22,959 nt of DNA, taken from IMG/VR virus record IMGVR_UViG_3300022752_000411, positions 1 to 22,959 of that record; one strand, 5' to 3'. A program made the position numbers and the translations under genes. Positions 5,275 to 21,991 of the stretch are shown one piece after another. Below the pieces are notes generated by a model, which saw only the letters and a program-made list of their open reading frames with translations, was not told where the DNA came from and did no database searches. Source of the DNA: a virus. Each line of letters begins with the position of its first letter. Positions within the stretch are counted from its first letter, which is position 1.

Positions 5275-5505
5275 ATGACCCCTCGCAGACAACTCGTTCT
5301 AGACTTCATCAAGGCTTACATTCGTATCCACGGCATAGCGCCGTCTTACGAAGTTATTGCCAAGGGTCTTGGTATGAAGTCAAAGGCGAATATCCACAGG
5401 ATCATCCATAGATTGCAAGCTGACGGATTCCTTACAACTAAGCCACACAAGTTTCATTCCATAAAGATTGTGGATCGCAGTGTTAAAGAAATGGCTTCCC
5501 TGTGA
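5275..5505 (+). CDS. LexA-type winged-helix DNA-binding protein (no peptidase domain)
   Basis: 76 aa covering just a LexA N-terminal DNA-binding domain. Helix 1 is MTPRRQLVLDFIKAYI, then HGIAPSYEVIAKGLGMKS (helix 2 and turn), the recognition helix at about 36-50 (KANIHRIIHRLQADGFL), and a short wing. It ends at 76 residues, whereas full LexA is about 200 and has a self-cleaving S24 peptidase domain; that domain is absent, so RecA-triggered cleavage is not expected. Its TGA overlaps the large-terminase GTG by 4 bp (GTGA), suggesting translational coupling. Possible jobs are local repressor, late-gene regulator or a DNA-recognition accessory to packaging. No strong Shine-Dalgarno precedes the ATG. 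Domain assignment is firm, role open. Confidence 0.85.
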   Translation: MTPRRQLVLDFIKAYIRIHGIAPSYEVIAKGLGMKSKANIHRIIHRLQADGFLTTKPHKFHSIKIVDRSVKEMASL

Positions 5506-7013
5506 CCTTGCTGACCAAGTCAGAAATTGGAGAGTATCTGTCCATAGTGGACACATTGCCTGAAGCTGAGAGAAACAAGGTTTACAGGTTATTGGAGTTG
5601 GACAGGGTTGAAAGATGTCGGGAGAGCTACCTTTACTTCGTCACTCAGATGTGGCCCGGGTTTATTTCGGGTAAACACCACCAGATCATGGCAGATGCCT
5701 TTGAACGTGTTGCGTCGGGTCAGCTTAAGCGTCTTATCATTAACATGCCTCCTCGTCATACAAAGTCAGAGTTTGCGTCATACCTGTTGCCATCATGGTT
5801 TCTTGGTAAATACCCGCAGAAAAAGATCATTCAGACTGCCCACACCGCAGAATTAGCTGTTGGATTTGGACGCAAGGTCAGGAATCTTGTGTCATCAGAA
5901 GCGTATTCAAAGGTGTTTGACACTAAGCTGTCCTCGGATTCAAAGGCCGCAGGACGGTGGAACACTGACGCAGGTGGAGATTACTTCGCTATTGGTGTTG
6001 GTGGAGCCGTTACCGGTAAAGGTGCAGATGTATTGATCATTGATGATCCTCATTCTGAGCAAGAGGCAAGACAAAACAACCCCGCAGTGTTTGATAGTGT
6101 GTATGAGTGGTACACATCTGGCCCTCGCCAGCGTTTACAACCCGGTGGATCTATCATTATTGTGATGACCCGGTGGTCTAAGCGGGATCTGACCGGGCAA
6201 ATCCTCAAGAATTCAGAAAAAGAAGGCGTAAACGACTGGGAAGTGATTGAATTTCCTGCGATTTTGCCGTCAGGAACCCCTTTATGGCCCAATTTCTGGA
6301 AAAAAGAAGAGCTTGAAGCCATTAAGGCTGAGATTCCTTCAGCTAAATGGGAAGCGCAGTACCAACAAAACCCCACCGGCAACGAAAGTGCCATCATCAA
6401 GCGGGATATGTGGAGGATTTGGGACAAAGAGACTCCCCCTTCCTGTGATTATTTGATCCAAAGCTGGGATACTGCCTTTGAGAAGAATAACCGCGCAGAT
6501 TATTCAGCCTGCACCACGTGGGGAGTGTTTCAACATCCCGATACGCAGGGCAATTTAAAGCCCAACATCATCGTCTTGGATTCGTTTAAACAGCGGATGG
6601 AGTTCCCAGAGCTAAAACAGAAAGCTATGGAGATGTGGAAGGAATGGAACCCAGACACATTGATCATTGAGAAGAAGGCAGCAGGCGCTCCTTTGATATA
6701 TGAGCTTCGGATGATGGGCATTCCCTTACAAGAGTTCACACCAAGCAAAGGAAACGATAAGATAGCGCGTGTAAACGCAATATCAGACCTGTTTGCATCT
6801 GGCGTGGTCTGGTGTCCAGAAACCCGCTGGGCTGATGAGCTAATGGAAGAGCTCGCAGCTTTCCCCTATGGCGACAACGATGACCTTGTTGACTCAACAA
6901 GTCAGGCATTGATTCGATACCGGCAGGGCGGGTTCATTGGAATAGATTCAGATGAGCAGGACGAAGTTAAGTACTTCAAAGGCCGCAGAACCGAACGGTA
7001 TTACACAGTTTAA
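5502..7013 (+). CDS. terL: Terminase large subunit
   Basis: 503 aa, the usual size. The N-terminal ATPase has a Walker A variant, PPRHTKSE (83-90), and a Walker B, LIIDDPH (178-184, Asp181/Asp182), with the coupling motif IVMTRW near 220-225. The C-terminal RNase H-like nuclease shows Asp323 in SWDTA, Glu390 in LIIEKK and an Asp-rich GDNDDLVD (457-464). The enzyme drives DNA into the procapsid and cuts it. The start is GTG at 5502, overlapping the LexA-like gene's stop; no good Shine-Dalgarno is seen, consistent with coupled translation. The portal gene follows after 9 bp. All key residues are intact. Confidence 0.97.
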   Translation: MTLLTKSEIGEYLSIVDTLPEAERNKVYRLLELDRVERCRESYLYFVTQMWPGFISGKHHQIMADAFERVASGQLKRLIINMPPRHTKSEFASYLLPSWFLGKYPQKKIIQTAHTAELAVGFGRKVRNLVSSEAYSKVFDTKLSSDSKAAGRWNTDAGGDYFAIGVGGAVTGKGADVLIIDDPHSEQEARQNNPAVFDSVYEWYTSGPRQRLQPGGSIIIVMTRWSKRDLTGQILKNSEKEGVNDWEVIEFPAILPSGTPLWPNFWKKEELEAIKAEIPSAKWEAQYQQNPTGNESAIIKRDMWRIWDKETPPSCDYLIQSWDTAFEKNNRADYSACTTWGVFQHPDTQGNLKPNIIVLDSFKQRMEFPELKQKAMEMWKEWNPDTLIIEKKAAGAPLIYELRMMGIPLQEFTPSKGNDKIARVNAISDLFASGVVWCPETRWADELMEELAAFPYGDNDDLVDSTSQALIRYRQGGFIGIDSDEQDEVKYFKGRRTERYYTV

Positions 7014-7022
7014 GGATTAAAA

Positions 7023-9518
7023 ATGGCAACAAGTTCAATGGATAAAGGTTTGTACGCAGCTCCTCTGGGGCTTGAGCAAGATATGGGGGCTCCTATTGAG
7101 ATTGAGATTGAGGATCCCAAGGCGGTGCATATTGGAATTGGAGATCTCCAAATTGATATGGAGCCACAAGAAGAAACATCAGAGGATTTTGATGTCAACC
7201 TTGCGGAGTACATGGACAACTCCGAGCTTGGAAGCCTGTCATCAGATTTGATTGATGATTTTGAAAAGGATACTCGCGACCGCAGAGATTGGATTCAAAC
7301 CTACGTCGAGGGCTTAAAGCTTCTAGGTCTGCGCTATGAAGATAGGACAGAACCTTGGCAGGGAGCCTGCGGTGTATTCCACCCAATGCTGACCGAGTCT
7401 GTTGTCAGGTTCCAGTCAGAAGGTATTACAGAGACATTCCCAGCTATGGGGCCTGTCAAGACAAAGATTATCGGCAAAGAAACTCCAGAGACTGAAGAAG
7501 CTGCGCAGAGAGTTCAGGAAGACATGAACTATCAGTTGACGGAAGTGATGACTGAGTATCGCCCGGAGCATGAAAAACTGCTGTGGTCTCTGCCAATCAC
7601 CGGATCAGCCTTCAAAAAGGTCTATTACGACCCATCAAAAGGCCGCCAAATGGCTGTGTTCATCCCCGCAGAGGACTTAGTTGTCCCTTATGGCGCAAGG
7701 GATATTGAGTCTTCAGAGCGTGTTACCCACGTAATGCGTAAGACCAAAAATGAGGTTTTGAAGCTTCAGGAGTCGGGTTTCTATCTAGACACAGATTTAG
7801 GTGACCCAAGCTACGAGCTTGATGATGTTGAGAAACAAAAGTCAGAAGAAAGCGGAATGTCTGCTATTCAAGATGATCGCTATCGCATTCTTGAAATGCA
7901 CGTAGACATTGATTTAAAAGGCTTTGAGCATAAAAACGACAAGGGTGAGAAGACAGGTATCGCTCTTCCCTACGTCGTAACGGTTGAAAAACAATCAGGT
8001 GAAATTCTTTCAATAAGGAGAAATTGGTATGAAGGAGATGAACTTCACATCAAGCGACAGCACTTCGTCCACTACCAATACATCCCCGGTGATGGATTCT
8101 ATGGTTATGGTCTTATCCACCTTATCGGGGGATATGCGAAGTCAGCTACGATGCTCATTCGACAGCTCGTTGATGCTGGGACGTTATCTAACTTACCCGG
8201 AGGTCTTAAATCTCGCGGCCTGCGCATTAAGGGGGACGACACCCCCATCCAGCCCGGAGAATTCAGGGACGTAGATGTGCCTTCCGGAAGCATCCGTGAC
8301 AACATCTTACCGCTGCCTTACAAAGAACCAAGTCAGGTTCTGTTTGCTTTATTCCAGAATATCGTTGAAGAAGGCCGCGCTTTTGCCAACGGCGGGGACA
8401 TGAATGTTTCCGATATGTCTGCGCAGGCTCCTGTAGGCACAACATTGGCAATTCTGGAGAGAACCTTAAAGGTTATGGGAGCAGTTCAGTCCCGTATGCA
8501 TTTCTCCATGAAGCAAGAATTCAAGCTTTTGAAGGTGATCATTGCCGACTATGCGCCTGAAGATTATGACTACGAGCCGCAAGAGGGTAGCCGCACCGCC
8601 CGCAGATCAGATTACGACAGCACGGACGTTATCCCCGTCAGCGACCCCAATGCATCCACAATGGCGCAGAAGATTGTCCAATATCAGGCAGTCCTTCAGT
8701 TGGCTCAAGGTGCGCCACAGTTGTATGACTTACCCCTGCTGCACCGCCAAATGATTGAGGTTCTTGGTGTAAAGAATGCTAATAAGCTGGTCAAGACAGA
8801 AGAGGATCAAGTTCCTACTGACCCGATTCAGGAAAATCAAAATGTTCTGACGGGCAAGTCAGTAAAGGCTTTTGTGGAACAAAACCACCAAGCGCACATT
8901 CAGATTCACATGATGGCAATCCAAGACCCTAAGATTGCCCAAATCATTGCTCAAAACCCGCAAGCGCAAATGATTCAAGCCGCAATGCTTGCCCATATCA
9001 ATGAACATACTGGGTTTCAGTACAGACTTGAGATTGAAAAGCGCATGGGCATGTCACTGCCAAGCGAAGAGCAATCCAAGCAAGTTCCTCCAGAAATGGC
9101 AGATCACCTCGCCATCATGGCGGCGCAAGCAGCCAAACAACTGTTTCAACAAAACAGCCAAGAGGCTCAACAGCAACAAGCTCAGCAACAACTGCAAGAT
9201 CCTATTGTTCAGATGCAAATGCAAGAACTTCAGATCAAGCAAGGCGAATTGCAGCTTAAACAGCAAAAACAACAGATTGACGCGGCAGCCAAGGCTGATC
9301 AGATCCGCGTTGAGCAGGCTCGTATTGAGGCGCAAAAAGAAATCGCCGCTATGCAAGTATCGGCAAAAGCTGCTGAGAGCAAAGATCGTTTAAACAAACA
9401 AATGGAATTAGATGGATCACGCTTAGGTGTGGACATCGCCAAACACCGATCCCAAATGTCGGTGCAAGCCGCGCTAAGAAATGCGCAACAACTTCCTAAC
9501 AGACCCAAGAAAGGTTAA
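7023..9518 (+). CDS. Portal protein, P22/SU10-like
   Basis: 831 aa, larger than many portals, in the size class of P22-type proteins. It has an acidic N-terminus (about 24-70) and a central region typical of podovirus portals, with FVHYQYIPGDGFYGYGLIHL (about 348-367), a Gly-rich loop SNLPGGLKSRGL, and APVGTTLAILER (469-480). A long Gln-rich helix at about 700-800 corresponds in position to the P22 barrel/crown. Twelve copies form the ring through which DNA enters and leaves the head. It sits 9 bp after terL with AAGGA before the ATG, and overlaps nothing downstream (2-bp gap). Family placement is by pattern and context, which are strong together. Confidence 0.92.
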   Translation: MATSSMDKGLYAAPLGLEQDMGAPIEIEIEDPKAVHIGIGDLQIDMEPQEETSEDFDVNLAEYMDNSELGSLSSDLIDDFEKDTRDRRDWIQTYVEGLKLLGLRYEDRTEPWQGACGVFHPMLTESVVRFQSEGITETFPAMGPVKTKIIGKETPETEEAAQRVQEDMNYQLTEVMTEYRPEHEKLLWSLPITGSAFKKVYYDPSKGRQMAVFIPAEDLVVPYGARDIESSERVTHVMRKTKNEVLKLQESGFYLDTDLGDPSYELDDVEKQKSEESGMSAIQDDRYRILEMHVDIDLKGFEHKNDKGEKTGIALPYVVTVEKQSGEILSIRRNWYEGDELHIKRQHFVHYQYIPGDGFYGYGLIHLIGGYAKSATMLIRQLVDAGTLSNLPGGLKSRGLRIKGDDTPIQPGEFRDVDVPSGSIRDNILPLPYKEPSQVLFALFQNIVEEGRAFANGGDMNVSDMSAQAPVGTTLAILERTLKVMGAVQSRMHFSMKQEFKLLKVIIADYAPEDYDYEPQEGSRTARRSDYDSTDVIPVSDPNASTMAQKIVQYQAVLQLAQGAPQLYDLPLLHRQMIEVLGVKNANKLVKTEEDQVPTDPIQENQNVLTGKSVKAFVEQNHQAHIQIHMMAIQDPKIAQIIAQNPQAQMIQAAMLAHINEHTGFQYRLEIEKRMGMSLPSEEQSKQVPPEMADHLAIMAAQAAKQLFQQNSQEAQQQQAQQQLQDPIVQMQMQELQIKQGELQLKQQKQQIDAAAKADQIRVEQARIEAQKEIAAMQVSAKAAESKDRLNKQMELDGSRLGVDIAKHRSQMSVQAALRNAQQLPNRPKKG

Positions 9519-9520
9519 CT

Positions 9521-9718
9521 ATGGATGCAACTCGTGTCTTACAGCACGTGCGAACTGAGCTAGAAAAAATCCGACAGGAGCAAGTGGATTTCCTAGCCAG
9601 CGGGAGACTGACTGATTTTGCCGAGTATCGGCATGTCTGCGGGGTGATTCGAGGTCTTGGTCACGCAGATGGTTTTATATCCGACCTTGCGAAGAAAATG
9701 GAGTATTCCGATGACTGA
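9521..9718 (+). CDS. Small hypothetical protein, 65 aa
   Basis: ATG at 9521, 2 bp after the portal stop, with AAAGG upstream inside the portal's last codons. The product is mainly helical (DATRVLQHVRTELEKIRQEQ) with an acidic C-terminus. I recall similar small ORFs behind portal genes in environmental phages but know no function. Its last 8 bp overlap the start of the GroES-like gene (ATGACTGA), so the two are probably translated together. Confidence 0.7.
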   Translation: MDATRVLQHVRTELEKIRQEQVDFLASGRLTDFAEYRHVCGVIRGLGHADGFISDLAKKMEYSDD

Positions 9719-10121
9719 ATTTGATGTTGAGGGGGTTGATCTGTCTGGCATTTTGAACGCAACTGCTGAACAAAAAGCCAAACAATTACCTGACCCCACG
9801 GGTTTTATGCTGCTTACCGTCGTTCCGGAAGCAATGGAAGAGTACGCAGAAAGCGATATTGGGATTGTTAAGTCCAGCCAAGCTATTTGGAAGGAAGAGA
9901 TTTTGACCCCCGTGCTTTTTGTTGTGAAGCTCGGCCCAGAAGCCTATAAGGACACAACTAGGTTCCCGTCAGGGCCTCGTTGCAAGGTTGGTGACTTTGT
10001 CATCGTCCGACCCAATTCAGGAACCCGCCTGAAGATTCATGGTCGTGAATTCCGTCTCATTAACGATGATTCGGTTGAAGCGGTTGTGGAAGACCCAAGA
10101 GGCATCACTCGTGCAGCATAA
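9711..10121 (+). CDS. GroES-like co-chaperonin-fold protein
   Basis: 136 aa. The pattern of GroES is visible: a beta start (FMLLTVVP, 32-39), a loop with DIGIVKSS (49-56) in the place of the GroES mobile loop (which carries an Ile-Val-Leu-type contact), VVKLGPEAY (71-79) matching the VLAVG strand, KVGDFVIV (92-99), and INDDSVEAVVEDP (117-129) at the end. Known phage precedent: T4 gp31 replaces GroES on host GroEL to fold the coat protein. Here the gene lies between portal and scaffold/coat, so a role in coat folding with host GroEL is plausible but inferred. ATG at 9711 is chosen (upstream in-frame start at 9657 lies inside the previous gene); it overlaps that gene by 8 bp. Confidence 0.72.
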   Translation: MTEFDVEGVDLSGILNATAEQKAKQLPDPTGFMLLTVVPEAMEEYAESDIGIVKSSQAIWKEEILTPVLFVVKLGPEAYKDTTRFPSGPRCKVGDFVIVRPNSGTRLKIHGREFRLINDDSVEAVVEDPRGITRAA

Positions 10122-10131
10122 GGAGTAATAC

Positions 10132-11097
10132 ATGGCAACATCAATTGAAAATGATACATACGAGTTTCCGGATGAAAAGGAAGCTAAAGCCTCAGAAGAG
10201 AAGTTTGAGGTAGATATTGAAGACGATACGCCTATCGCAGATAGGGGTCGTAAAAGCGCTGGCCCGATAGATGAGCCCGCAGATGAAGAGCTTTCCAAGT
10301 ACAGTAAGGATGTACAAGAGCGCGTAGGAAAACTCAAGCGCGGCTACCACGATGAGCGCAGAGCCAAAGAGAAGTCTGAGCGAGAGCGCTTGGCGGCAGA
10401 AGAGTTTGCTGCGCAGGTTTATGAGGAAAACAAGCGTTTAAAGGGGCAACTCAAGTACGGCAGTGAAGTTTTCATTGAGCAAAACAAGTCTACAGCCCAG
10501 ATGTCTCTGGACGCAGCCAAGAAACGCTACAAGGAAGCCTATGAATCTGGCGATTCCGATGGCGTGGCTGAAGCTCAAATGGAGATTACCAAAGCAACGC
10601 TCAGGATCGACCGGGCAGAGCAAATGCGCCCAGTTGAAGAGCCTGAAATCTTTAGACCAGCTCCCCAACAACCCGTTCAAAATATTTCGCCTAGAACCCA
10701 GCGATGGGTTGAAGCCAACTCTTCGTGGTTTGGTGCAGACGAAGAAATGACAATGGCGGCTATGGGCCTTGACAGGAAACTGAAAAAGGAATATGGTGAC
10801 GACTATGCGGGTACTGAAGAGTACTTCCAAACCATCGATAAAACGATGCGCAAAAGATTTCCTGAGAACTTTGATTCTCAGCGCCATGAGGACGATGATA
10901 CCTCCTATAAGTCATCAGAATCGGATGAGGAATCCCCTCGCCGCGCCAAGCCTGCTTCTGTCGTAGCTCCGGCTACACGTAGCACCCCACCCAATCGCGT
11001 AAAACTATCAGCATCTCAAGCCACCATTGCGCGTCGGCTTAATGTGCCTATAGAAGAGTATGCGAAAGCGGTTGCAAATTTAAGAAGGAATGCTTAA
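10132..11097 (+). CDS. Scaffolding protein
   Basis: 321 aa, strongly charged and helical, with AAGGAG before the ATG. An acidic, disordered N-terminus (residues 1-55) leads into a long coiled coil (about 58-165) rich in Lys, Glu and Arg, then a Pro-rich linker. The C-terminus ends with a short basic helix containing ATIARRLNVPIEEYAKAVAN, a form common at the ends of phage scaffolds, where it binds coat protein. Scaffolds shape the procapsid and then leave or are degraded. The position between portal and coat genes is typical. No protease domain is seen. Confidence 0.8.
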   Translation: MATSIENDTYEFPDEKEAKASEEKFEVDIEDDTPIADRGRKSAGPIDEPADEELSKYSKDVQERVGKLKRGYHDERRAKEKSERERLAAEEFAAQVYEENKRLKGQLKYGSEVFIEQNKSTAQMSLDAAKKRYKEAYESGDSDGVAEAQMEITKATLRIDRAEQMRPVEEPEIFRPAPQQPVQNISPRTQRWVEANSSWFGADEEMTMAAMGLDRKLKKEYGDDYAGTEEYFQTIDKTMRKRFPENFDSQRHEDDDTSYKSSESDEESPRRAKPASVVAPATRSTPPNRVKLSASQATIARRLNVPIEEYAKAVANLRRNA

Positions 11098-12428: not shown

Positions 12429-13340
12429 ATGGCTATTTCACGTGCACAACTACTTAAAGAGTTGCTCCCCGGCTTGAATGCCTTGTTTGGTATGGAGTAC
12501 GCTCGTTACGGTGAAGAACATAAAGAAATTTATGAAACCGAAACTTCAGAGCGTTCTTTTGAAGAAGAAACCAAACTGTCTGGCTTCTCAGCCGCACCTG
12601 TCAAAAACGAAGGCTCTGCCATCGCTTATGACAATGCTCAAGAGGCATGGACTACTCGCTACAACCACGAAACCATTGCTTTGGGTTTCTCAATCACTGA
12701 AGAAGCGATTGAAGATAACTTGTACGACAGCTTGTCTGCTCGTTACACCAAAGGTCTGGCTCGTGCTATGGCTTACACCAAGCAGGTTAAAGCTGCTGCT
12801 ACTCTCAACAACGGTTTCTCTGCCGCTTATGTCGGTGGCGACGGTGTTGCTTTGTTTAGCACTGCTCACCCCTTGGTTTCTGGTGGAACCAACTCCAACC
12901 GTCCTGCCACTGCTGCTGACTTGAATGAAACTTCGTTGGAAAACGCTGTTATTCAGATCGCTGCATGGACAGACGAGCGTGGTTTGTTGATCGCCGCCAA
13001 GCCCAAGAAGCTGATTGTTCCCCCTGCATTGCAGTTCGTGGCTACCCGCCTGTTGGAAACCAACCTCCGTGTTGGCACTGCTGACAACGACATCAACGCA
13101 TTGAAGAACAACGGCTCTATCCCCGAAGGCTACACCATTAACCATTACCTGACCGACACAAACGGCTGGTATTTGACTACTGATGTACCTAACGGTTTGA
13201 AGCATTTCGTTCGTTCACCCCTTGCCAACAGCATGGACGGTGACTTTGATACCGGCAACGTCCGTTACAAAGCCCGCGAGCGTTATAGCTTTGGTTGGTC
13301 TGATCCATTGGGAATTTATGGCTCCCCCGGTTCGTCTTAA
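12429..13340 (+). CDS. Major capsid protein (Mu gpT-like, HK97 fold)
   Basis: 303 aa. The sequence follows the pattern of Mu-like head subunits: an N-terminal helix (SRAQLLKELLPGLNALFG), an acidic extended-loop region (about 35-75, ending in DNAQEAWTTRYNHETIALGF), the A-domain marker LFSTAHPLVSGGTNSN (142-157), KPKKLIVPPAL (191-201), and a C-terminal strand DTGNVRYKARERYSFGW. These proteins form the icosahedral shell. AAGGAG lies upstream. A perfect rho-independent terminator follows the stop, ending the head operon. No cleavage site or delta domain is obvious; a separate scaffold is present, in agreement. Confidence 0.9.
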   Translation: MAISRAQLLKELLPGLNALFGMEYARYGEEHKEIYETETSERSFEEETKLSGFSAAPVKNEGSAIAYDNAQEAWTTRYNHETIALGFSITEEAIEDNLYDSLSARYTKGLARAMAYTKQVKAAATLNNGFSAAYVGGDGVALFSTAHPLVSGGTNSNRPATAADLNETSLENAVIQIAAWTDERGLLIAAKPKKLIVPPALQFVATRLLETNLRVGTADNDINALKNNGSIPEGYTINHYLTDTNGWYLTTDVPNGLKHFVRSPLANSMDGDFDTGNVRYKARERYSFGWSDPLGIYGSPGSS

Positions 13341-14085: not shown

Positions 14086-14382
14086 ATGTCAATGCAGACA
14101 GATGTAAAAAGTGCTCATTTAAGCGCTGCTGGCTCTTACTACGTTGGAAGAACACGCCTTAAAGGGTTTGTCGTTAGCCCAAAAGCAAGCACAGCCGCAA
14201 CATTTGAGATTAGAGATGGTAGCTCTACAGCCGCCGTTCTTTACACAATGGACATTGCAAGTCTTGGAACGCCAAACACATTTTATGTGCTAGTCCCCGG
14301 TGAAGGTATTTTGGCCTCTACGGGTTTATATCTGACAACAAGTGTTGGTTCTGTTACCGGCATATCGGTGTTCTATGGCTAG
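14086..14382 (+). CDS. Small structural-type protein, 98 aa
   Basis: ATG at 14086 with GGAG at 14075-14078 (7-bp spacing); a TTG six bases upstream would be inside the hairpin and is not preferred. The protein is a compact, beta-rich sequence (RLKGFVVSPKASTAATFEIR, then LYTMDIASLGTPNTFYVLVP) without charged tails or signal peptide. This is in line with a virion protein; similar small proteins follow capsid genes in other phages, as far as I recall. Its end overlaps the next start by 8 bp, beginning a chain of overlapping genes. Confidence 0.62.
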   Translation: MSMQTDVKSAHLSAAGSYYVGRTRLKGFVVSPKASTAATFEIRDGSSTAAVLYTMDIASLGTPNTFYVLVPGEGILASTGLYLTTSVGSVTGISVFYG

Positions 14383-14695
14383 CCCAGCATGGACGCGCAA
14401 AGAAGGGAAGAATCCGAGCGGAGGTTTGAACGCCAAAGGTCGGGCTTCCTACAACGCAGCAAATCCGGGGAAGCCGGGGTTGAAAGCTCCTCAACCCGAG
14501 GGTGGCAAACGCCGCGACTCTTTCTGCGCCCGTATGAAAGGGATGAAAGCGAAATTGACGAGCGCAGAAACCGCAAGGGATCCAGATTCGAGGATTAACA
14601 AGAGTCTTCGTGCTTGGAACTGCGCTGATGGCGGGTATGTAACGCAAGCTGATGGTTGTGCTACCAAAGGCAAAACAAAGGGTAGGTTTGTATGA
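14375..14695 (+). CDS. Small basic phage protein with shared C-terminal motif (possibly DUF6321-like)
   Basis: 106 aa from ATG 14375; the frame opens at 14342 with a start inside the previous gene that is less likely. The N-terminus SPAWTRKEGKNPSGGLNAKG, the middle SFCARMKGMKAKLTS and DPDSRINKSLRAWNC follow a family I recall from marine and freshwater phages (DUF6321-like; the name is from memory). Four Cys are present (one in each of those two stretches counting Cys51, Cys83, plus Cys94), but the last lies in the tag ADGCATKGKTKGRFV. That 15-residue end is identical to the end of the gene at 16019. The gene is basic and overlaps its neighbours on both sides. Function unknown. Confidence 0.7.
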   Translation: MASPAWTRKEGKNPSGGLNAKGRASYNAANPGKPGLKAPQPEGGKRRDSFCARMKGMKAKLTSAETARDPDSRINKSLRAWNCADGGYVTQADGCATKGKTKGRFV

Positions 14696-14898
14696 CTGAG
14701 CAAACAGACACCGTAAAAAACGTACTGGATGTGGTGGCAGTTTTTACCACTCTCGGTACATTTTTGAACTTACTTACTCCTGTGTTCGGTTTGATCGGTG
14801 CAGTAGTCGGTGTCATGCGCATCTACGAGATGGCTACAGGCAAAGAGTTTTCAACACTGTGGCGTAAAAAGGAAGACGACGATGCCAGCGAAAAGTGA
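14692..14898 (+). CDS. Putative holin-like membrane protein, 68 aa
   Basis: ATG 14692 overlaps the previous stop (ATGA). Residues 11-43 are strongly hydrophobic (VLDVVAVFTTLGTFLNLLTP, then VFGLIGAVVGVM) and may form one long or two short membrane segments; the C-terminal third is charged (WRKKEDDDASEK). Size and shape fit a small phage holin, which opens the inner membrane at lysis, but no endolysin is present in the window to support this. It could also be a virion membrane-interacting protein delivered during infection. Its end overlaps the next gene by 17 bp. Confidence 0.5.
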   Translation: MTEQTDTVKNVLDVVAVFTTLGTFLNLLTPVFGLIGAVVGVMRIYEMATGKEFSTLWRKKEDDDASEK

Positions 14899-15343
14899 AA
14901 AACAAAAGACCTTTATGGACGCCGTGGCTCATAACCCAGCGTTCGCAAAGAAAGTTGGAGTCCCCCAATCTGTGGGTAAAGACTTCAGTGAGGCCAGCAA
15001 AGGCATGAAGTTTGGTAAAGGATCTGTGACTCGCGCAGATTCTCAAACAATTAACAATCCCAAAACCAATCAAGGTAAGCAGGAATTTTTTAAAAAAGGT
15101 GGCATTATGGCAACGAAAATGAATCCCGGATTTATGGCAATGATGGCTAAGAAAAAAACTGGAGCCAAATCAGAGATGCCCTCAAAGATGGGCAAACCTG
15201 TGATGAAAAAAGGCATGGACACTGCCAAAGATGGCATGAAGATGGCTAAAGGCGGTTCAGCCTCTGCCCGTGCCGATGGTGTTGCTCAAAAGGGCAAGAC
15301 TAAGGGCAAAATGCTCGCCAAAGGCGGCAAAGCGTATTGTTAA
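14882..15343 (+). CDS. Basic Met/Lys/Gly-rich protein with shared C-terminal motif, 153 aa
   Basis: ATG 14882 (GAAGACGACG upstream) is favoured over the earlier in-frame start at 14810, which lies within the holin-like gene. The N-terminal half (PAKSEKQKTFMDAVAHNPAF, VGVPQSVGKDF, ASKGMKFGKG) matches a small protein type I recall from many phages. The second half starts at Met76 (15107), has its own AAAGG 8 bases before it, and is rich in Met, Lys and Gly (MATKMNPGFMAMMAKKKTG). It ends RADGVAQKGKTKGKMLAKGG followed by KAYC, a variant of the shared tag. Two fused or separately started products are possible. Role unknown; strongly basic, so nucleic-acid or membrane contact is plausible. Confidence 0.68.
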   Translation: MPAKSEKQKTFMDAVAHNPAFAKKVGVPQSVGKDFSEASKGMKFGKGSVTRADSQTINNPKTNQGKQEFFKKGGIMATKMNPGFMAMMAKKKTGAKSEMPSKMGKPVMKKGMDTAKDGMKMAKGGSASARADGVAQKGKTKGKMLAKGGKAYC

Positions 15344-15358
15344 TTTAAGGAGCAAATC

Positions 15359-16009
15359 ATGGCAAAAGCAAGAGATTTAGCAGCATTGGCAGGACTTGCG
15401 GGTCTTGCTTATGCCATGCGCAATAAAGATAAGGGTATGACTCCCGAGCAAAATGACACTTTGGCAAATGCCAATAGAGTCAGCAGAATGTCTGACGACA
15501 GCGATACTTTAGCTCGTGTAAATCGCAATATGTCTTCCGGGCAAAATGCGGTTGATGACACCAATGCTGGCGTTTTAAACGCAATTCTTAGACCCAAGGC
15601 AAGTGCTGATACTGGCGTAGATGACACAACCGCAGAAATGTACCCATCTGGAGTGATGGGCGGGGCTAGACAGCAGACTGCCTCAAAACCTGCGGCAAGA
15701 CTCAAGTCAAAACGTATGTCTGATGCTCAAAATGACATGTTGGCAAAAGCCGGGAGAGATCTTGCTGGTTACCGTAATGAAGATTATGGCAATGAGTCAA
15801 TGCGCCCTGTAACTTCAACGCCAACAATGCTGCCCGGATCTGACCCATTTGAACCGCTTAGAAGCGGTACACGTCACCCAAGAACGGGTCGAATGATGAA
15901 CAAAGGCGGCTCAGTTAAAAAAATGGCTTCAGGCGGAATTACATCATCTGCGTCTAAACGTGCTGATGGTATTGCCACTAAAGGCAAAACACGCGGCAGA
16001 ATTTGTTAA
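15359..16009 (+). CDS. Basic protein with N-terminal hydrophobic helix and shared C-terminal motif, 216 aa
   Basis: AAGGAG precedes the ATG. Residues 4-20 (ARDLAALAGLAGLAYAM) form a small hydrophobic helix followed by RNKDKG, a possible membrane or signal-like anchor. The centre is polar and looks disordered, with two related stretches (EQNDTLANANR near 30 and AQNDMLAKAGR near 121), so an internal duplication is likely. The end is NKGGSVKKMASGG followed by SKRADGIATKGKTRGRIC, a clear copy of the motif at the ends of its neighbours. I recognise no enzyme domain. It could be an internal or ejected virion protein; this is inference from context. Confidence 0.65.
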   Translation: MAKARDLAALAGLAGLAYAMRNKDKGMTPEQNDTLANANRVSRMSDDSDTLARVNRNMSSGQNAVDDTNAGVLNAILRPKASADTGVDDTTAEMYPSGVMGGARQQTASKPAARLKSKRMSDAQNDMLAKAGRDLAGYRNEDYGNESMRPVTSTPTMLPGSDPFEPLRSGTRHPRTGRMMNKGGSVKKMASGGITSSASKRADGIATKGKTRGRIC

Positions 16010-16018
16010 GGAAAAACC

Positions 16019-16477
16019 ATGAAAAAACGTTATGACGAGGGTGGATACATCCCCAAATCAATCTTCAACCAAGAAGGCACTGACATAGCTGATGTTGGCG
16101 AATCAAGGTATATGGCTGGGCCATCTGAAGAAGAACCCAATGCCAAGAAAAAACCTAAAGTTGCTCGTAAAGAAAATTACAGCAACGAGGGGCGAAGCTC
16201 TAAGCCAAAAGAAGAAATGAAGCAGATTTCCGAGCCAGAGTCATATAAGACTCGCTCAAAGCTTGACCCCTATGGCGTGATTGAGGGCGCAGCCAACAAG
16301 GTTAAAGGCGCAGCAAGCAGTATTGGCGACGCTTTGTCTAGTCCCTTCCGCGCAATCCGTGAGGCTGGCAACCGTGGCAATCCTGACGCCAAGAAAATGG
16401 CTTCTGGTGGTATGACTGCTTCTAGTCGCGCTGATGGCTGTGCTACTAAGGGCAAGACCAAGGGTCGATTTGTATGA
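16019..16477 (+). CDS. Basic protein with shared C-terminal motif, 152 aa
   Basis: AAGGA lies upstream of ATG 16019. The start MKKRYDEGGYIPKSIFNQEG resembles the openings of many short phage proteins with an (x)xGG turn. The middle is low-complexity and very rich in Lys, Glu and Ser (about 45-85). A short amphipathic stretch, VIEGAANKVKGAASSIGDAL (about 89-108), could be a membrane-active helix. The end KKMASGGMTASSRADGCATK, then GKTKGRFV, is the shared motif; the last 15 residues equal those of the gene at 14375, but the codons differ. Its last bases overlap the next gene (ATGA). Unknown role. Confidence 0.65.
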   Translation: MKKRYDEGGYIPKSIFNQEGTDIADVGESRYMAGPSEEEPNAKKKPKVARKENYSNEGRSSKPKEEMKQISEPESYKTRSKLDPYGVIEGAANKVKGAASSIGDALSSPFRAIREAGNRGNPDAKKMASGGMTASSRADGCATKGKTKGRFV

Positions 16478-17055
16478 TGTCTTCTCGCGGTATGGGCGCA
16501 ATCAACCCCAAGAAGATGCCGGGGAAGAAGGAGATCACCCGTAAGGATGATCCGAACAAAGTTGCCATGTACAAAAAGGGTGGCTTGGCAAAACAAGCTG
16601 CTACCGCCATAGCCATGAAAGCGGCAGGCAAGAAGCCAAAGAAAATGAAAGAAGGTGATTTGGTTGATGATGTCAGCGTAAAGCCAAATTATATTGAGCT
16701 AGATAAAAACTTTAAGGCTATTGGCGCTAGGCTTGAGGGTAAAAAGTCTTTGGGAAAAGATTCTGAATTGTCAGCGTACATGGATTTGGATGCAATGAAA
16801 GCTGGCAACCAATCAACAAAAGCAAGCGCCTCAAAAATTGGTGTTAACTACACAAAAAGATTTTCTGATGGCGGAAAAACAAAATCCAAAGTAAACGAGG
16901 CGGGTAATTACACCAAGCCAGAGTTACGTAAACGGATTTTCAACAGCGTCAAAGCTGCGGCAATCGTGGGTACAGGCGCAGGGCAGTGGAGCGCGAGAAA
17001 AGCGCAGGTAATGGCTAAACGCTATAAAGCTGCTGGCGGCGGGTATCGTGATTAA
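16474..17055 (+). CDS. Basic protein with conserved C-terminal KxQWSARKAQ domain, 193 aa
   Basis: The ATG at 16474 overlaps the preceding TGA; a second ATG at 16477+1 (16477-16479 region) would remove one Met only. Residues 1-37 (INPKKMPGKKEITRKDDPNK, then MYKKGG) are common in this class of phage proteins. The C-terminus (about 139-193) carries NEAGNYTKPELRKRIFNSVK and GQWSARKAQVMAKRYKAAGG, a conserved segment I have seen in marine virus proteins. It looks like a small helical, probably nucleic-acid-binding domain. The middle is an acidic to neutral linker. The next gene starts inside its last codons (GTG at 17048, 8-bp overlap). Confidence 0.65.
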   Translation: MMSSRGMGAINPKKMPGKKEITRKDDPNKVAMYKKGGLAKQAATAIAMKAAGKKPKKMKEGDLVDDVSVKPNYIELDKNFKAIGARLEGKKSLGKDSELSAYMDLDAMKAGNQSTKASASKIGVNYTKRFSDGGKTKSKVNEAGNYTKPELRKRIFNSVKAAAIVGTGAGQWSARKAQVMAKRYKAAGGGYRD

Positions 17056-17284
17056 AAAACCTCAAAAATCCCTAAAGGATTGGGGAAACCAAGATTGGAC
17101 AACTAAAAGTGGTAAAAAATCTTCTGATACGGGTGAAAGATATCTTCCAAAAGCTGCAATTAAAAGTCTCAGCGCTTCTGAATACGCTGCGACAACACGT
17201 GCAAAACGTGCTGGCAAAGCTAAAGGGAAACAATTCGTAGCCCAACCTAAAACAATTGCAAAGAAAACGGCAGGATTTAGATAA
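17048..17284 (+). CDS. Small basic conserved phage protein, 78 aa
   Basis: Start is GTG at 17048, overlapping the previous gene by 8 bp, and the stop TAA overlaps the following ATG by one base. Very basic: the sequence contains SLKDWGNQDWTTKSGKKSSD, TGERYLPKAAIKSLSASEYA and TRAKRAGKAKGKQF, and ends KTIAKKTAGFR. This set of motifs (Trp pairs, GERYLP, Ala-Lys-rich tail) is recurrent in phage and giant-virus small proteins, to my recollection. Probable DNA or RNA contact because of the charge; no function is established. Coding is supported by stop/start overlaps on both ends. Confidence 0.65.
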   Translation: MIKKPQKSLKDWGNQDWTTKSGKKSSDTGERYLPKAAIKSLSASEYAATTRAKRAGKAKGKQFVAQPKTIAKKTAGFR

Positions 17285-18228
17285 TGGCAAACACTTCCGG
17301 CGCATCGTCGTTTAACCTAGACCTAACTGAGTTGGTCGAGGAGGCGTTTGAGCGCGCTGGTGGTGAGCTTCGCACCGGATATGACCTGCGCACAGCCAGA
17401 CGCAGTTTAAACATCATGTTTGCTGACTGGGCAAACCGTGGTATTAACTTGTGGACGATTGAGACCGGCACGATTAATCTGGTTCAGGGTCAGAATACTT
17501 ACGCCCTGCCCAATGACACCATTGATTTGCTTGAGCATGTCATTAGAACACAGGCAAATGTTGCCGCAACTCAGGCTGATTTGAGTATCACTAGGATTAG
17601 CGTTTCTACCTACGCTACGATTCCCAACAAGATTACCCAAGCCAGACCTATTCAGGTTTGGATTCAACGATATAACGGACAGACTAGCCCTATTTCATCT
17701 ACGCTAACCACGACAATCACAAGTACATCAAACACAATTGTGTTAAGTGATGTTACGGGTTTACCCGCATCTGGGTTTGTAAAGATTGATAACGAGATCA
17801 TTAACTACGGATACATTACTCAGAACACAAACGCTGTATCTGGGACTTTAAATAATTGTTTCCGTGGACAGCAAGATACTATTGCGGCGGCACATACGGC
17901 TGCGGCTACCGTCTATTGGCAGCAAGTCCCCGCGATCACCGTTTGGCCTACCCCAGACAATGCACAGCAATACCAATTTGTGTATTGGCGCTTGCGACGT
18001 ACCCAAGACGCAGGCGGCGGTGTCAATATCATGGATGTACCGTTCCGTTTTATTCCTTGTATGGCGGCTGGCCTGTCATACTATATCGCTGGCAAAGTAC
18101 CAACAGGTATGGAGCGCTTACCCATGCTAAAACAGCAGTATGACGAGGCGTGGGAGCTTGCCGCATATGAAGATCATGAAAAGGCAGCATTACGTTTAGT
18201 TCCTAGGCAGACCTACATTGGGAGGTAG
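17284..18228 (+). CDS. Head-to-tail adaptor-like protein, with inserted beta domain
   Basis: 314 aa. The N-terminal part (FNLDLTELVEEAFERAGGEL, then DLRTARRSLNIMFADWANRG) is the helical start seen in podovirus adaptor proteins of the P22 gp4 / SU10 adaptor type, and the last 70 residues (FRFIPCMAAGLSYYIAGKVP and a helix to the end) match the other half of that fold. Residues about 138-212 (LTTTITSTSNTIVLSDVTGL, then IDNEIINY and CFRGQQDTIAAAHTAAATV) look like a separate beta domain of the kind common in phage fibres. Adaptors sit below the portal and close the head. Position before a second adaptor-like gene (19079) fits. The family name is from pattern memory, not a search. Confidence 0.72.
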   Translation: MANTSGASSFNLDLTELVEEAFERAGGELRTGYDLRTARRSLNIMFADWANRGINLWTIETGTINLVQGQNTYALPNDTIDLLEHVIRTQANVAATQADLSITRISVSTYATIPNKITQARPIQVWIQRYNGQTSPISSTLTTTITSTSNTIVLSDVTGLPASGFVKIDNEIINYGYITQNTNAVSGTLNNCFRGQQDTIAAAHTAAATVYWQQVPAITVWPTPDNAQQYQFVYWRLRRTQDAGGGVNIMDVPFRFIPCMAAGLSYYIAGKVPTGMERLPMLKQQYDEAWELAAYEDHEKAALRLVPRQTYIGR

Positions 18229-18230
18229 TC

Positions 18231-18620
18231 TTGAGTAATCGTTTTGCTTCTGGCAAGAATGCAATTTCGGAGTGTGACCGCTGTGGTCAGCGGTTCAAGT
18301 TAAAGGTTCTTAAGACTGAGATCATCAAGACTAAGAACTACAACTTGTTGGTGTGCCCTGAATGTTGGGATCCAGACCATCCGCAGTTGCAGTTGGGTAT
18401 GTACCCCGTGGATGACCCACAGGCTCTGAGGAATCCTAGACCTGACCGCAGTTATGTGACTTCGGGTTTGTTGGCTGACGGCAAGGCGGGCGGTGGTAGT
18501 CGAATCTTTCAATGGGGCTGGGCTCCAGTTGGAGGTGCAAGCAGTTTTGATGCGGCATTGACGCCAAATAATTTGAATTTGGTTGTACAACTTGGTACAG
18601 TAACGGTAAGCGTAACCTAG
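18231..18620 (+). CDS. Zinc-ribbon protein in the tail module, 129 aa
   Basis: The start is TTG at 18231, chosen because GGAGG lies 5 bases upstream and no ATG fits. Cys15, Cys18, Cys42 and Cys45 (CDRCGQRF, CPECWD) form a classical four-Cys zinc ribbon, followed by LQLGMYPVDDPQALRNPRPD and a beta-rich C-terminus (SFDAALTPNNLNLVVQLGTV). Proteins of this form occur in phage structural regions in my memory; the job is unknown. The zinc ribbon may bind DNA or stabilise a virion part. Located 2 bp after the first adaptor gene. Confidence 0.7.
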   Translation: MSNRFASGKNAISECDRCGQRFKLKVLKTEIIKTKNYNLLVCPECWDPDHPQLQLGMYPVDDPQALRNPRPDRSYVTSGLLADGKAGGGSRIFQWGWAPVGGASSFDAALTPNNLNLVVQLGTVTVSVT

Positions 18621-18629
18621 GAGTTAAAA

Positions 18630-18809
18630 ATGGACAAAGCGGATTTAAAACAAGACAAGAAGATGATTGCTGGCGCAGTGCATAAGCACGAGAAAAAGCT
18701 GCATCCCGGCAAGCCTATGACCAAATTAGCCAAAGGCGGCAAGACCAATGAAATGATGTTGAGCATGGGTCGTGGTATGGCTAAAGTTGCAAATCAGCGA
18801 GGCAGATAA
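18630..18809 (+). CDS. Small basic protein, 59 aa
   Basis: ATG 18630 follows TAGGAG with 7 spacing. The 59-aa product is Lys/Gly/Met-rich: MDKADLKQDKKMIAGAVHKH, EKKLHPGKPMTKLAKGGKT, and a Met-rich tail (NEMMLSMGRGMAKVAN). The KLAKGG turn is similar to the GG turns of the 14.9-16.5 kb proteins. I recall near-identical short proteins in other phages; no function known. Its stop overlaps the next start by one base. It is real on grounds of coupling and ribosome site, despite its small size. Confidence 0.65.
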   Translation: MDKADLKQDKKMIAGAVHKHEKKLHPGKPMTKLAKGGKTNEMMLSMGRGMAKVANQRGR

Positions 18810-19075
18810 TGGCTAAATTCAGCGACAAACGAATGGGCAAAGAGGTTGGCAACGCTATGGTGTACGCACAACCACACAACATGTCTGGCAAGGCTGTGGG
18901 TATTGAGCCCAACCCCGGCAAAATGCCAAATCGCAGCAAAGCCGACACGGTTGATATGACTATTGGCAACATCAGCAAATCTGCTGGTAACGAGCCTATC
19001 AAAACCGACGGCATCAAAATGCGTGGTACTGGCGCGGCTACCAAAGGCTTAATGTCTAGAGGGCCAATGGCGTAA
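18809..19075 (+). CDS. Small basic protein, 88 aa
   Basis: The ATG shares its first base with the TAA of the previous gene. The product runs KFSDKRMGKEVGNAMVYAQP, GIEPNPGKMPNRSK and ends with MRGTGAATKGLMSRGPMA. The end resembles, more weakly, the ATKG-type tag of the proteins at 14375-16477. Predicted soluble, basic, without transmembrane segments. It lies 3 bp before the second adaptor-like gene. Function not known; a small virion or assembly-associated protein is a reasonable guess. Confidence 0.62.
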   Translation: MAKFSDKRMGKEVGNAMVYAQPHNMSGKAVGIEPNPGKMPNRSKADTVDMTIGNISKSAGNEPIKTDGIKMRGTGAATKGLMSRGPMA

Positions 19076-21034: not shown

Positions 21035-21991
21035 ATGGCATACGGCTGGGGTGATAATACTTGGGGCGCATTTGGCTGGGGCGGTGTAACCGTCTATGCT
21101 GATTCCGTCACTGAGACTGCCGCCCTAACCGATGCTCAAGCAGCACAAACAGCCTTTACAGCTTCTGTTACAGAAACAGCGGCTTTAACTGATTCTCAGG
21201 TTGGTGGATTAGTTCTTGCGGTATCTGTTACTGAAACAGCAGCCACATCTACAACAGAATCTGTAGTCGCAACATTTGCAGGAAGCATTACCGAAACAGC
21301 GGCAACAAGCACCACGGAATCTGCCACCGCCAACTTTCCTGTATCCCTGACAGAAACAGCAGCCACATCCACGACTGAGAGCGTGGCAGCCACATTTGCC
21401 AAATCAATTACAGAGACGGCAGCAACCAGCACAAGTGAGAGCGTAGCAGCTACGTTTGCACAGTCAATTACGGAAACTGCGGCAATTGCGGAAACTAATG
21501 CGGCTGCAACGTCTTATACAACCACGGTAGAGGACAGCTTAGCTACCAGCACAACCGAGTCCGCAACGGCTAACTTTGCCGCATCTGTAACTGAAACGGC
21601 TGCAACATCAACGACAGAATCAGCGGCTGCCACGTTTATTAAGAGCATTACCGAGACGATGGCGGCTACGGATGAGATCTTCTTTAGCTGGCTTGCTTCT
21701 ATAAATGAGTCTGCGGCTATTGCAGATATAAATGTAGTAGGCACGTATTACATATTGAGCGTCAGCGAAACCACTGCAATTGCTGATAATCTAGCGGCAA
21801 TAACAAATTATAAAGTAAGCCGCACTGAAACGGCTGCAATCACGTCTACCGAGACAGGTAGAAATCTATGGGTAATTATTGATGACAGTCAGACCGCAAA
21901 CTGGCAAAATATCAGTAATCCACAAACACCGGGCTGGTCTGTTATAAACAACGCAGAAACAGCCAACTGGTCAACAATTTCTACAGTGTAG
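21035..21991 (+). CDS. Repetitive fibre-like protein with thirteen 20-residue repeats
   Basis: 318 aa: a 23-residue Gly/Trp-rich head (AYGWGDNTWGAFGWGG), thirteen repeats (residues 24-281) of the type SVTETAATSTTESVAATFA, and a 37-residue tail with spaced Trp residues (TANWQNIS, TPGWSVIN, TANWSTIS). All repeats are 20 residues but one of 18; positions Ser1, Glu4, Thr5 and Ala6 are most kept. Such regular repeats form a fibrous stalk or beta-solenoid in phage fibres, and similar repeat proteins are known to me from environmental phages. The start is 1 bp after the previous stop. Likely host-contact or spacer part; the exact fold is not shown. Confidence 0.7.
   Translation: MAYGWGDNTWGAFGWGGVTVYADSVTETAALTDAQAAQTAFTASVTETAALTDSQVGGLVLAVSVTETAATSTTESVVATFAGSITETAATSTTESATANFPVSLTETAATSTTESVAATFAKSITETAATSTSESVAATFAQSITETAAIAETNAAATSYTTTVEDSLATSTTESATANFAASVTETAATSTTESAAATFIKSITETMAATDEIFFSWLASINESAAIADINVVGTYYILSVSETTAIADNLAAITNYKVSRTETAAITSTETGRNLWVIIDDSQTANWQNISNPQTPGWSVINNAETANWSTISTV
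21104..21877 (+). repeat. 13 tandem 60-bp coding repeats
   Basis: The 20-residue repeats in the preceding gene correspond to 60-bp units in frame (one unit of 54 bp). They are diverged at the DNA level, many differing at synonymous sites, so they are old rather than recent slippage. Each unit encodes SxTETAA-type starts. Confidence 0.85.

Follow-up and report, generated by a model that had tools for sequence, protein, structure and literature searches.

A conserved C-terminal peptide that probably addresses a changing set of proteins to the particle of an aquatic phage lineage

A conserved ending of about 25 residues, carried by a large and mostly freshwater group of phages, probably acts as an address label that places a changing set of proteins in the virus particle, as judged from the genes. 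This peptide (the tag) is modular, C-terminal and selected at the protein level, is restricted to a single locus and a single lineage of capsids, and is found on protein bodies that turn over fast. It is almost certainly a real recognition module. A first-pass annotation had proposed a shared recognition signal on unrelated proteins, and the proposal is strongly supported by the modularity, position and protein-level selection of the tag and by its recurrence in more than 100 loci. The window analyzed here is the whole 22,959-nt stretch of IMG/VR record IMGVR_UViG_3300022752_000411, with reading frames called mechanically (Table 1). Because its capsid gene is preceded, in the same orientation, by the terminase and portal genes, the shell is that of a phage head and not of a cellular encapsulin. 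Elsewhere in the window, the minus-strand gene at 1312-1941 resembles, by eye, an SprT-like zinc metalloprotease (HELCH motif, zinc-binding CPACGY), and the product of 21035-21991, with repeated (S/V)xTETAATSTTES units, is probably a fiber or surface protein.

Table 1. Features of the window in and around the tagged interval
Feature	Position	Strand	Basis or remark
Terminase	5502-7013		
Portal protein	7023-9518	+	phrog_1216, E=4.2e-27
GroES-like co-chaperonin in the portal-scaffold gap	9711-10121		By position; counterparts in cultured relatives annotated GroES
Probable scaffold	10132-11097	+	By position; phrog_28737, E=1.1e-29 (PHROG of unknown function)
Major capsid protein	12429-13340	+	phrog_371, E=7.5e-23; candidate receptor by co-occurrence and Mantel tests
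Tagged gene 1: DUF6321 (residues 11-81) and C-terminal tag	14375-14695	+	Pfam PF19846, E=5e-19
Gene 1 tag add-on, ADGGYVTQADGCATKGKTKGRFV	14624-14692	+	Core 14648-14692; Cys at position 4
Tagged gene 2: KSxxQ-type N-terminal domain and long-type tag	14882-15343	+	phrog_16759, E=4.6e-18, residues 1-43
Gene 2 long-type tag, ADGVAQKGKTKGKMLAKGGKAYC	15272-15340	+	Last residue is the protein's only Cys
Tagged gene 3: N-terminal hydrophobic Ala/Gly helix and short tag	15359-16009	+	Body without library relatives
Gene 3 short tag, ADGIATKGKTRGRIC	15962-16006	+	Ile at position 4; last residue is the protein's only Cys
Tagged gene 4: basic low-complexity body and short tag	16019-16477	+	No credible Pfam or PHROG match
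Gene 4 short tag, ADGCATKGKTKGRFV	16430-16474	+	Same fifteen residues as in gene 1, with different synonymous codons
Conserved untagged gene adjoining the tagged cassette	16474-17055	+	phrog_17747 domain, C-terminal
Conserved small basic untagged gene at the cassette boundary	17048-17284	+	phrog_14910
Adaptor/connector-region gene, downstream limit of the tagged interval	17284-18228	+	Named by position and by annotated adaptors of relatives

The four motifs described by the first-pass annotation are all present in frame and are each followed by a stop codon, at 14648 (ADGCATKGKTKGRFV), 15272 (ADGVAQKGKTKGKMLAKGGKAYC), 15962 (ADGIATKGKTRGRIC) and 16430 (ADGCATKGKTKGRFV). A degenerate DNA pattern of the core matches exactly these four sites in the window, compared with a mean of 0.00 in 100 dinucleotide-preserving shuffles. 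Three of the proteins stop exactly three residues past the motif, and the copy at 15272 has eleven more, ending in ..GGKAYC. The copies, described as alike, do share one core, but the copy at 15272 belongs to a long type of tag and not to the short type. A profile of 176 tags comprises a GG-rich lead, (S/T)-S-A-S-(K/S)-R, and [AG]DG[CI]A-x-[KR]-GKT-[KR]-G-[KR]-[MFI]-[VC]; the core as first reported is real, but it is part of a longer conserved stretch of about 25 residues. Apart from the tag, the four proteins are unrelated by BLAST, Pfam and PHROGs, as had been noted. Gene 14375 is a member of DUF6321 (69.2 bits against a gathering score of 28.5) and also matches phrog_3477 and other PHROGs, while the other three tagged genes do not belong to this family; the second matches phrog_16759, the body of gene 15359 has no match in Pfam and none below E 0.3 in PHROGs, and no credible match in either library was found for gene 16019. 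A weaker form of the motif, GAATKGLMSRG, had also been read at the end of the gene at 18809. This gene was rejected as a tag carrier: it belongs to a separate, single-copy C-terminal motif family (window 18809-19075, GIKMRGTGAATKGLMSRGPMA) whose RGTGAATKG is found in 60 loci, lies at a constant distance from the C-terminus in 59 of them and never matches the tag HMM.

A scan of the viral collection with the degenerate DNA pattern returned at least 120 stretches and at least 203 tagged reading frames; among the matches listed, 137 frames end exactly three residues past the motif and about 50 end 9-21 residues past the core (counts from several of the collection scans are likewise among the matches listed, and the contig sets overlap partly). 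Conservation of the core in this set is by construction, because the pattern fixed the core residues, but the end position is informative, because the pattern left it free. The tag profile also picks up tags outside the DNA pattern (GDGIAQRGKTRG and others, 133 ORFs), and variants outside the search pattern still keep DG, GKT and G. In the profile search that the first-pass annotation had suggested, the tag proved to be C-terminal on otherwise unrelated genes, with 220 of 353 closed tagged ORFs ending 0-1 residues past the model. Fourteen ORFs of about ten families show a truncated tag, ..A-I-R-G-K-T-[R/K]-A, at the stop codon (loci L004, L008, L009, L043, L050, L062, L086, L091, L136, L152, L158, L179, L190 and L213). 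One small family of proteins of about 60 residues, encoded downstream of the adaptor in eight loci of the capsid-centered set (e.g., L153 and L190), bears the motif near its N-terminus (MAFTKSADGIAKKGKTEGKN...), and a free C-terminus is thus not a strict requirement; the C-terminal part of these proteins is shared with window gene 18630 (18630-18809).

In bacterial and archaeal genomes (257 Gb), the pattern was found in 11 stretches; four of these (L207, L209, L213 and L214) have tag-like C-termini and resemble phage contigs in metagenome bins, and the remaining ones are chance matches. The tag was not found in plasmids. Among 50,697 phage records, it is present in a single 65-kb cyanophage genome type, represented by three records: Planktothrix phage Pag-Yong1, a cultured relative, and its twins MinM2 and Pra-JY27. 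The tagged protein of this type has 308 residues, ends in GGMIGRDGCAKRGRTKGRFI and is encoded in the cement-adaptor interval, as in the window; the C-terminus of Pag-Yong1 protein UMO75986.1 reads ..RDGCAKRGRTKGRFI. A search of papers for the tag peptide gave its sole match in an unrelated remote-sensing paper.

The modularity of the tag is clearest in DUF6321 (PF19846), of which gene 14375 is a clear member. As a rule, its members stop short of the tag: 174 of 208 complete copies are untagged, their last residue being the conserved Cys of ..RAWNC or ..RWKC, and about 15 of the 208, including that of the window, run on for 15-23 residues, which constitute the tag. The tag did not originate in DUF6321, which is one of its carriers. 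BLAST sorts the 320 tagged bodies with 30 or more residues into 104-126 families, including 71-91 singletons, a number that depends on the clustering; disordered proteins diverge fast, and true relatives could look unrelated by BLAST. A single homologous domain covering most of each protein, the alternative against which the first-pass annotation had set its reading, was rejected on the basis of these families. In the largest cluster (104-121 of the 320 bodies), low-complexity bodies stand together with the KSxxQ family; of 116 copies in the KSxxQ family itself, 73 have the long-type tag and a single one has the short type. Tagged proteins range from 67 to 453 residues, and untagged homologues exist for only 5 of 104 body families. 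When sequences of the window clade were compared anchored at the C-terminus, one C-terminus was common to 36 of the 114 unrelated gene families of the capsid-adaptor interval, with 1136 cross-family matches versus 1, 2 and 3 in shuffles, and a diverged form of the tag occurs in 11 families of the Pag-Yong1-like clade.

The bodies are disorder-rich and mostly basic (median pI 9.6; 88% net positive), as expected for proteins near packaged DNA. Homology-based comparison of 96 tagged proteins with Pfam, PHROGs and PADLOC revealed only DUF6321, the KSxxQ domain and marginal matches; within these libraries, the bodies matched no known host-takeover or anti-defence protein. About 12% of the bodies, at a loose threshold, begin with a hydrophobic Ala/Gly/Leu helix (LAALAGLAGLAYAMRNK and similar; window 15359-16009, L065, L088, L174 and L191), which is possibly membrane-active.

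Between tags, four-fold sites differ at 0.54 within a phage and 0.60 between phages, compared with a random expectation of 0.65, and the core DNA is identical in only 3 of 112 within-locus pairs. Synonymous sites inside the tags are therefore near random, which implies that selection acts on the peptide. At the protein level, tags of one phage are more alike (16.6 of 25 positions, versus 14.95 +/- 0.33 when shuffled), as expected for a shared partner, although shared ancestry may contribute.

In loci fetched through the capsid, the conserved gene order is terminase, portal, GroES-like, scaffold, two genes, capsid, small genes, DUF6321, tagged genes, the phrog_17747 gene, the phrog_14910 gene and adaptor; candidate cement genes directly precede the cassette, and the adaptor comes after it. 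Tags were found in 35 of 37 capsid-to-adaptor loci, with 71 tagged genes inside the interval and 8 outside, the latter comprising the family with the N-terminal motif and one inverted locus. Gene content of the tagged interval turns over almost completely, while the flanking genes keep 60-88% identity. Two loci have on average 1.2% of their short-tag bodies in common (none in 428 of 435 locus pairs), whereas the capsid (88% mean identity), DUF6321 (67%) and the adaptor (62.5%) are present in every locus compared.

The tag is also associated with a particular capsid. Thirty of 49 tag-bearing records found independently of the capsid encode a relative of the window capsid, usually 82-92% identical, and nearly all records long enough to show a capsid are of the window type; the longest tag-bearing record without a capsid gene (L024) has its tags close to where the stored sequence begins. 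The tag has a diverged form in a clade at 71-82% capsid identity, and in the clades at 63% and 56% the shared tag was not found, apart from one case in the former (L342). Mantel tests of tag against capsid distance gave a rho of 0.50-0.61 in most paired tests, better than for portal, scaffold and terminase, which contribute little (0.14, -0.02 and -0.09, respectively) when capsid distance is held constant. The exception is gene 18231, which is not a capsid gene, retains 0.34 and correlates with tag divergence as well as the capsid or better; its product (18231-18620) contains two CxxC pairs (Cys 15, 18, 42 and 45) and is zinc-ribbon-like. Because the capsid correlation mostly reflects the separation of two clades, with a weak relation within that of the window (rho about 0.1-0.24), it is a pointer and not proof. 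The major capsid protein appears to be the candidate receptor, with the portal and the probable scaffold as possible alternatives. Targeting to the virion, whether to its interior or to a capsid surface, was among the functions first suggested and is plausible, being weakly favored by synteny and co-divergence with the capsid. The capsid and the first cement-position protein have no match among solved structures, and the second has matches with E>0.1 only. The AlphaFold2 model of the DUF6321-tag protein (mean pLDDT 57, tag below 50) fits disorder of the lone peptide and does not prove it, and that of the capsid (pLDDT 37) is unusable.

The placement of cysteine in the tag follows a rule: most tags have a single Cys, either at position 4 or at the very end, and hardly ever in both places. 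Among 217 short tags, Cys is found at position 4 in 102, at position 15 in 51 and at both positions in 2, versus about 24 expected (Fisher p 4e-14, or 8e-8 on unique 15-mers, in tests that treat related tags as independent). Tags with Cys at position 4 and tags with Cys as last residue coexist in one phage, as in the window, and in one body family. Long-type tags have a Cys within the last three residues in 74 of 94 cases, and 185 of 208 DUF6321 copies end in Cys. Per residue, Cys is found at 0.0013 in the bodies versus 0.027 in the tail region, and in the window no Cys is encoded by the capsid gene, the scaffold gene or the pair of small genes that follow the capsid. If the tag formed a hairpin turning at GKT, positions 4 and 15 would come to lie opposite one another, and the Cys may have a thiol function, such as a disulfide formed outside the cell and opened inside.

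Several other explanations of the tag were weighed against targeting to the head. It could be a nucleic-acid-binding tail, with the basic GKTKGR binding the genome, and serve for passive entry into the head with the DNA or for DNA condensation. Several Lys/Arg residues lie in the 15-residue core, the bodies are basic, and the same cassette holds other small basic proteins (16474, 17048 and DUF6321 itself). However, K and R are freely interchangeable at the basic positions, and strong conservation extends to uncharged ones, so the tag is more sequence-specific than charge alone needs, and a purely electrostatic tail need not follow the capsid lineage; this explanation is considered unlikely. 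The tag could also anchor variable proteins on the outside of the head or neck, for decoration or host-surface binding, with which the candidate cement genes before the cassette and the adaptor behind it would agree; hypervariability fits surface adhesins too. Such anchoring seems quite unlikely for bodies that are basic and disorder-rich, and in which the libraries show no beta-rich or adhesin-like domains.

A more conservative explanation holds that no tag was acquired and that the carriers are old paralogues, few in number, of one disordered protein (internal or scaffold-like) whose body has changed past recognition and of which only the C-terminal binding site stayed fixed. Disordered bodies would indeed diverge fast, and both the scarcity of untagged homologues and the size of the largest BLAST cluster are in line with such descent. 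Nevertheless, the conserved domain DUF6321 occurs both tagged and untagged, the lengths of tagged proteins differ widely, and locus pairs share almost no short-tag bodies. Paralogy is thus a rather poor prospect as a full account, and even if it were partly true the C-terminus would remain a recognition site. The tag could instead direct processing or be read by the host, as a maturation protease site, a degron or a membrane-targeting signal. This would suit the C-terminal placement and the hydrophobic N-terminal helix of some bodies, but it is highly improbable. Protease processing, another early suggestion, is disfavored because, unlike in a cleaved site, conservation reaches the last residue and no maturation protease was recognized in the window (the record is a fragment); a host-directed tag, in turn, need not follow the capsid lineage. 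Finally, four similar DNA stretches within 2 kb of the window might suggest a DNA element, i.e., a recombination linker translated by accident. The near-random synonymous sites within a phage and the rarity of identical core DNA leave this explanation next to no chance, and a recombination or DNA repeat or a mobile element was rejected, since the copies are not similar at synonymous sites.

Targeting of proteins by short peptides is known from other shells. The capsid-targeting sequence (CTS) of phage T4, present in IPI-IPIII and Alt, is N-terminal and about 10 residues long, acts via the core and is removed by gp21 (PMC9026906; PMC9391042). The CTS is known to bring cargo into the head. Like the CTS, the tag is a short peptide common to otherwise unrelated proteins of one phage. 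Unlike the CTS, it is C-terminal, spans about 25 residues and follows a Cys rule, and no protease was recognized in the window, a fragmentary record. In T4, a restriction system is inhibited by IPI, and one particular host strain requires IPIII (PMC9391042), which fits with a variable cassette. In phage P1, an N-terminal capsid-targeting signal sends the internal protein DarB and a fused reporter into the head (PMC9024508); this signal was described for one protein, whereas the C-terminal tag occurs on many families. In Family 1 encapsulins, C-terminal peptides select unrelated cargo for an HK97-fold shell (PMC8346489). Like these cargo-loading peptides, the tag is short, conserved and C-terminal, and its unrelated carriers are encoded close to the shell protein. 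However, the shell here is a phage head, the peptide is different, and encapsulin cargo consists of folded enzymes, whereas the tagged bodies look disordered. By analogy, and as tested, the tag appears to share the logic of the T4 CTS and the encapsulin peptides while belonging to neither.

Targeting to the head, with the tagged proteins as interior cargo, is given about an even chance. Late in infection, the capsid-adaptor cassette would yield variable small proteins, mostly basic and disorder-prone, that end in the tag. The tag, presumably unstructured alone, would dock at a site that recurs on the head during assembly, most likely on the inward-facing side of the major capsid protein, and the tagged proteins would enter the head together with the DNA and be delivered with it at infection. 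The single Cys near the chain end may make a reversible disulfide or a metal contact. That the tag docks on the capsid, that its carriers lie inside and are delivered, and what the Cys does are parts of the mechanism that we infer. A bolder version, which is doubtful, is a general packaging code in an abundant aquatic phage lineage: a capsid-read C-terminal tag would load dozens of interchangeable host-directed proteins, with the single Cys as a reversible lock whose disulfide forms outside the cell and is released in the reducing cytoplasm.

If true, the tag would be a sequence-readable marker for particle-borne unknown genes in a very common aquatic phage group, and around a hundred anonymous gene families would become candidate injected proteins. 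It would also represent a C-terminal counterpart to the capsid-targeting sequence of T4 and offer a simple handle to load foreign proteins into phage heads.
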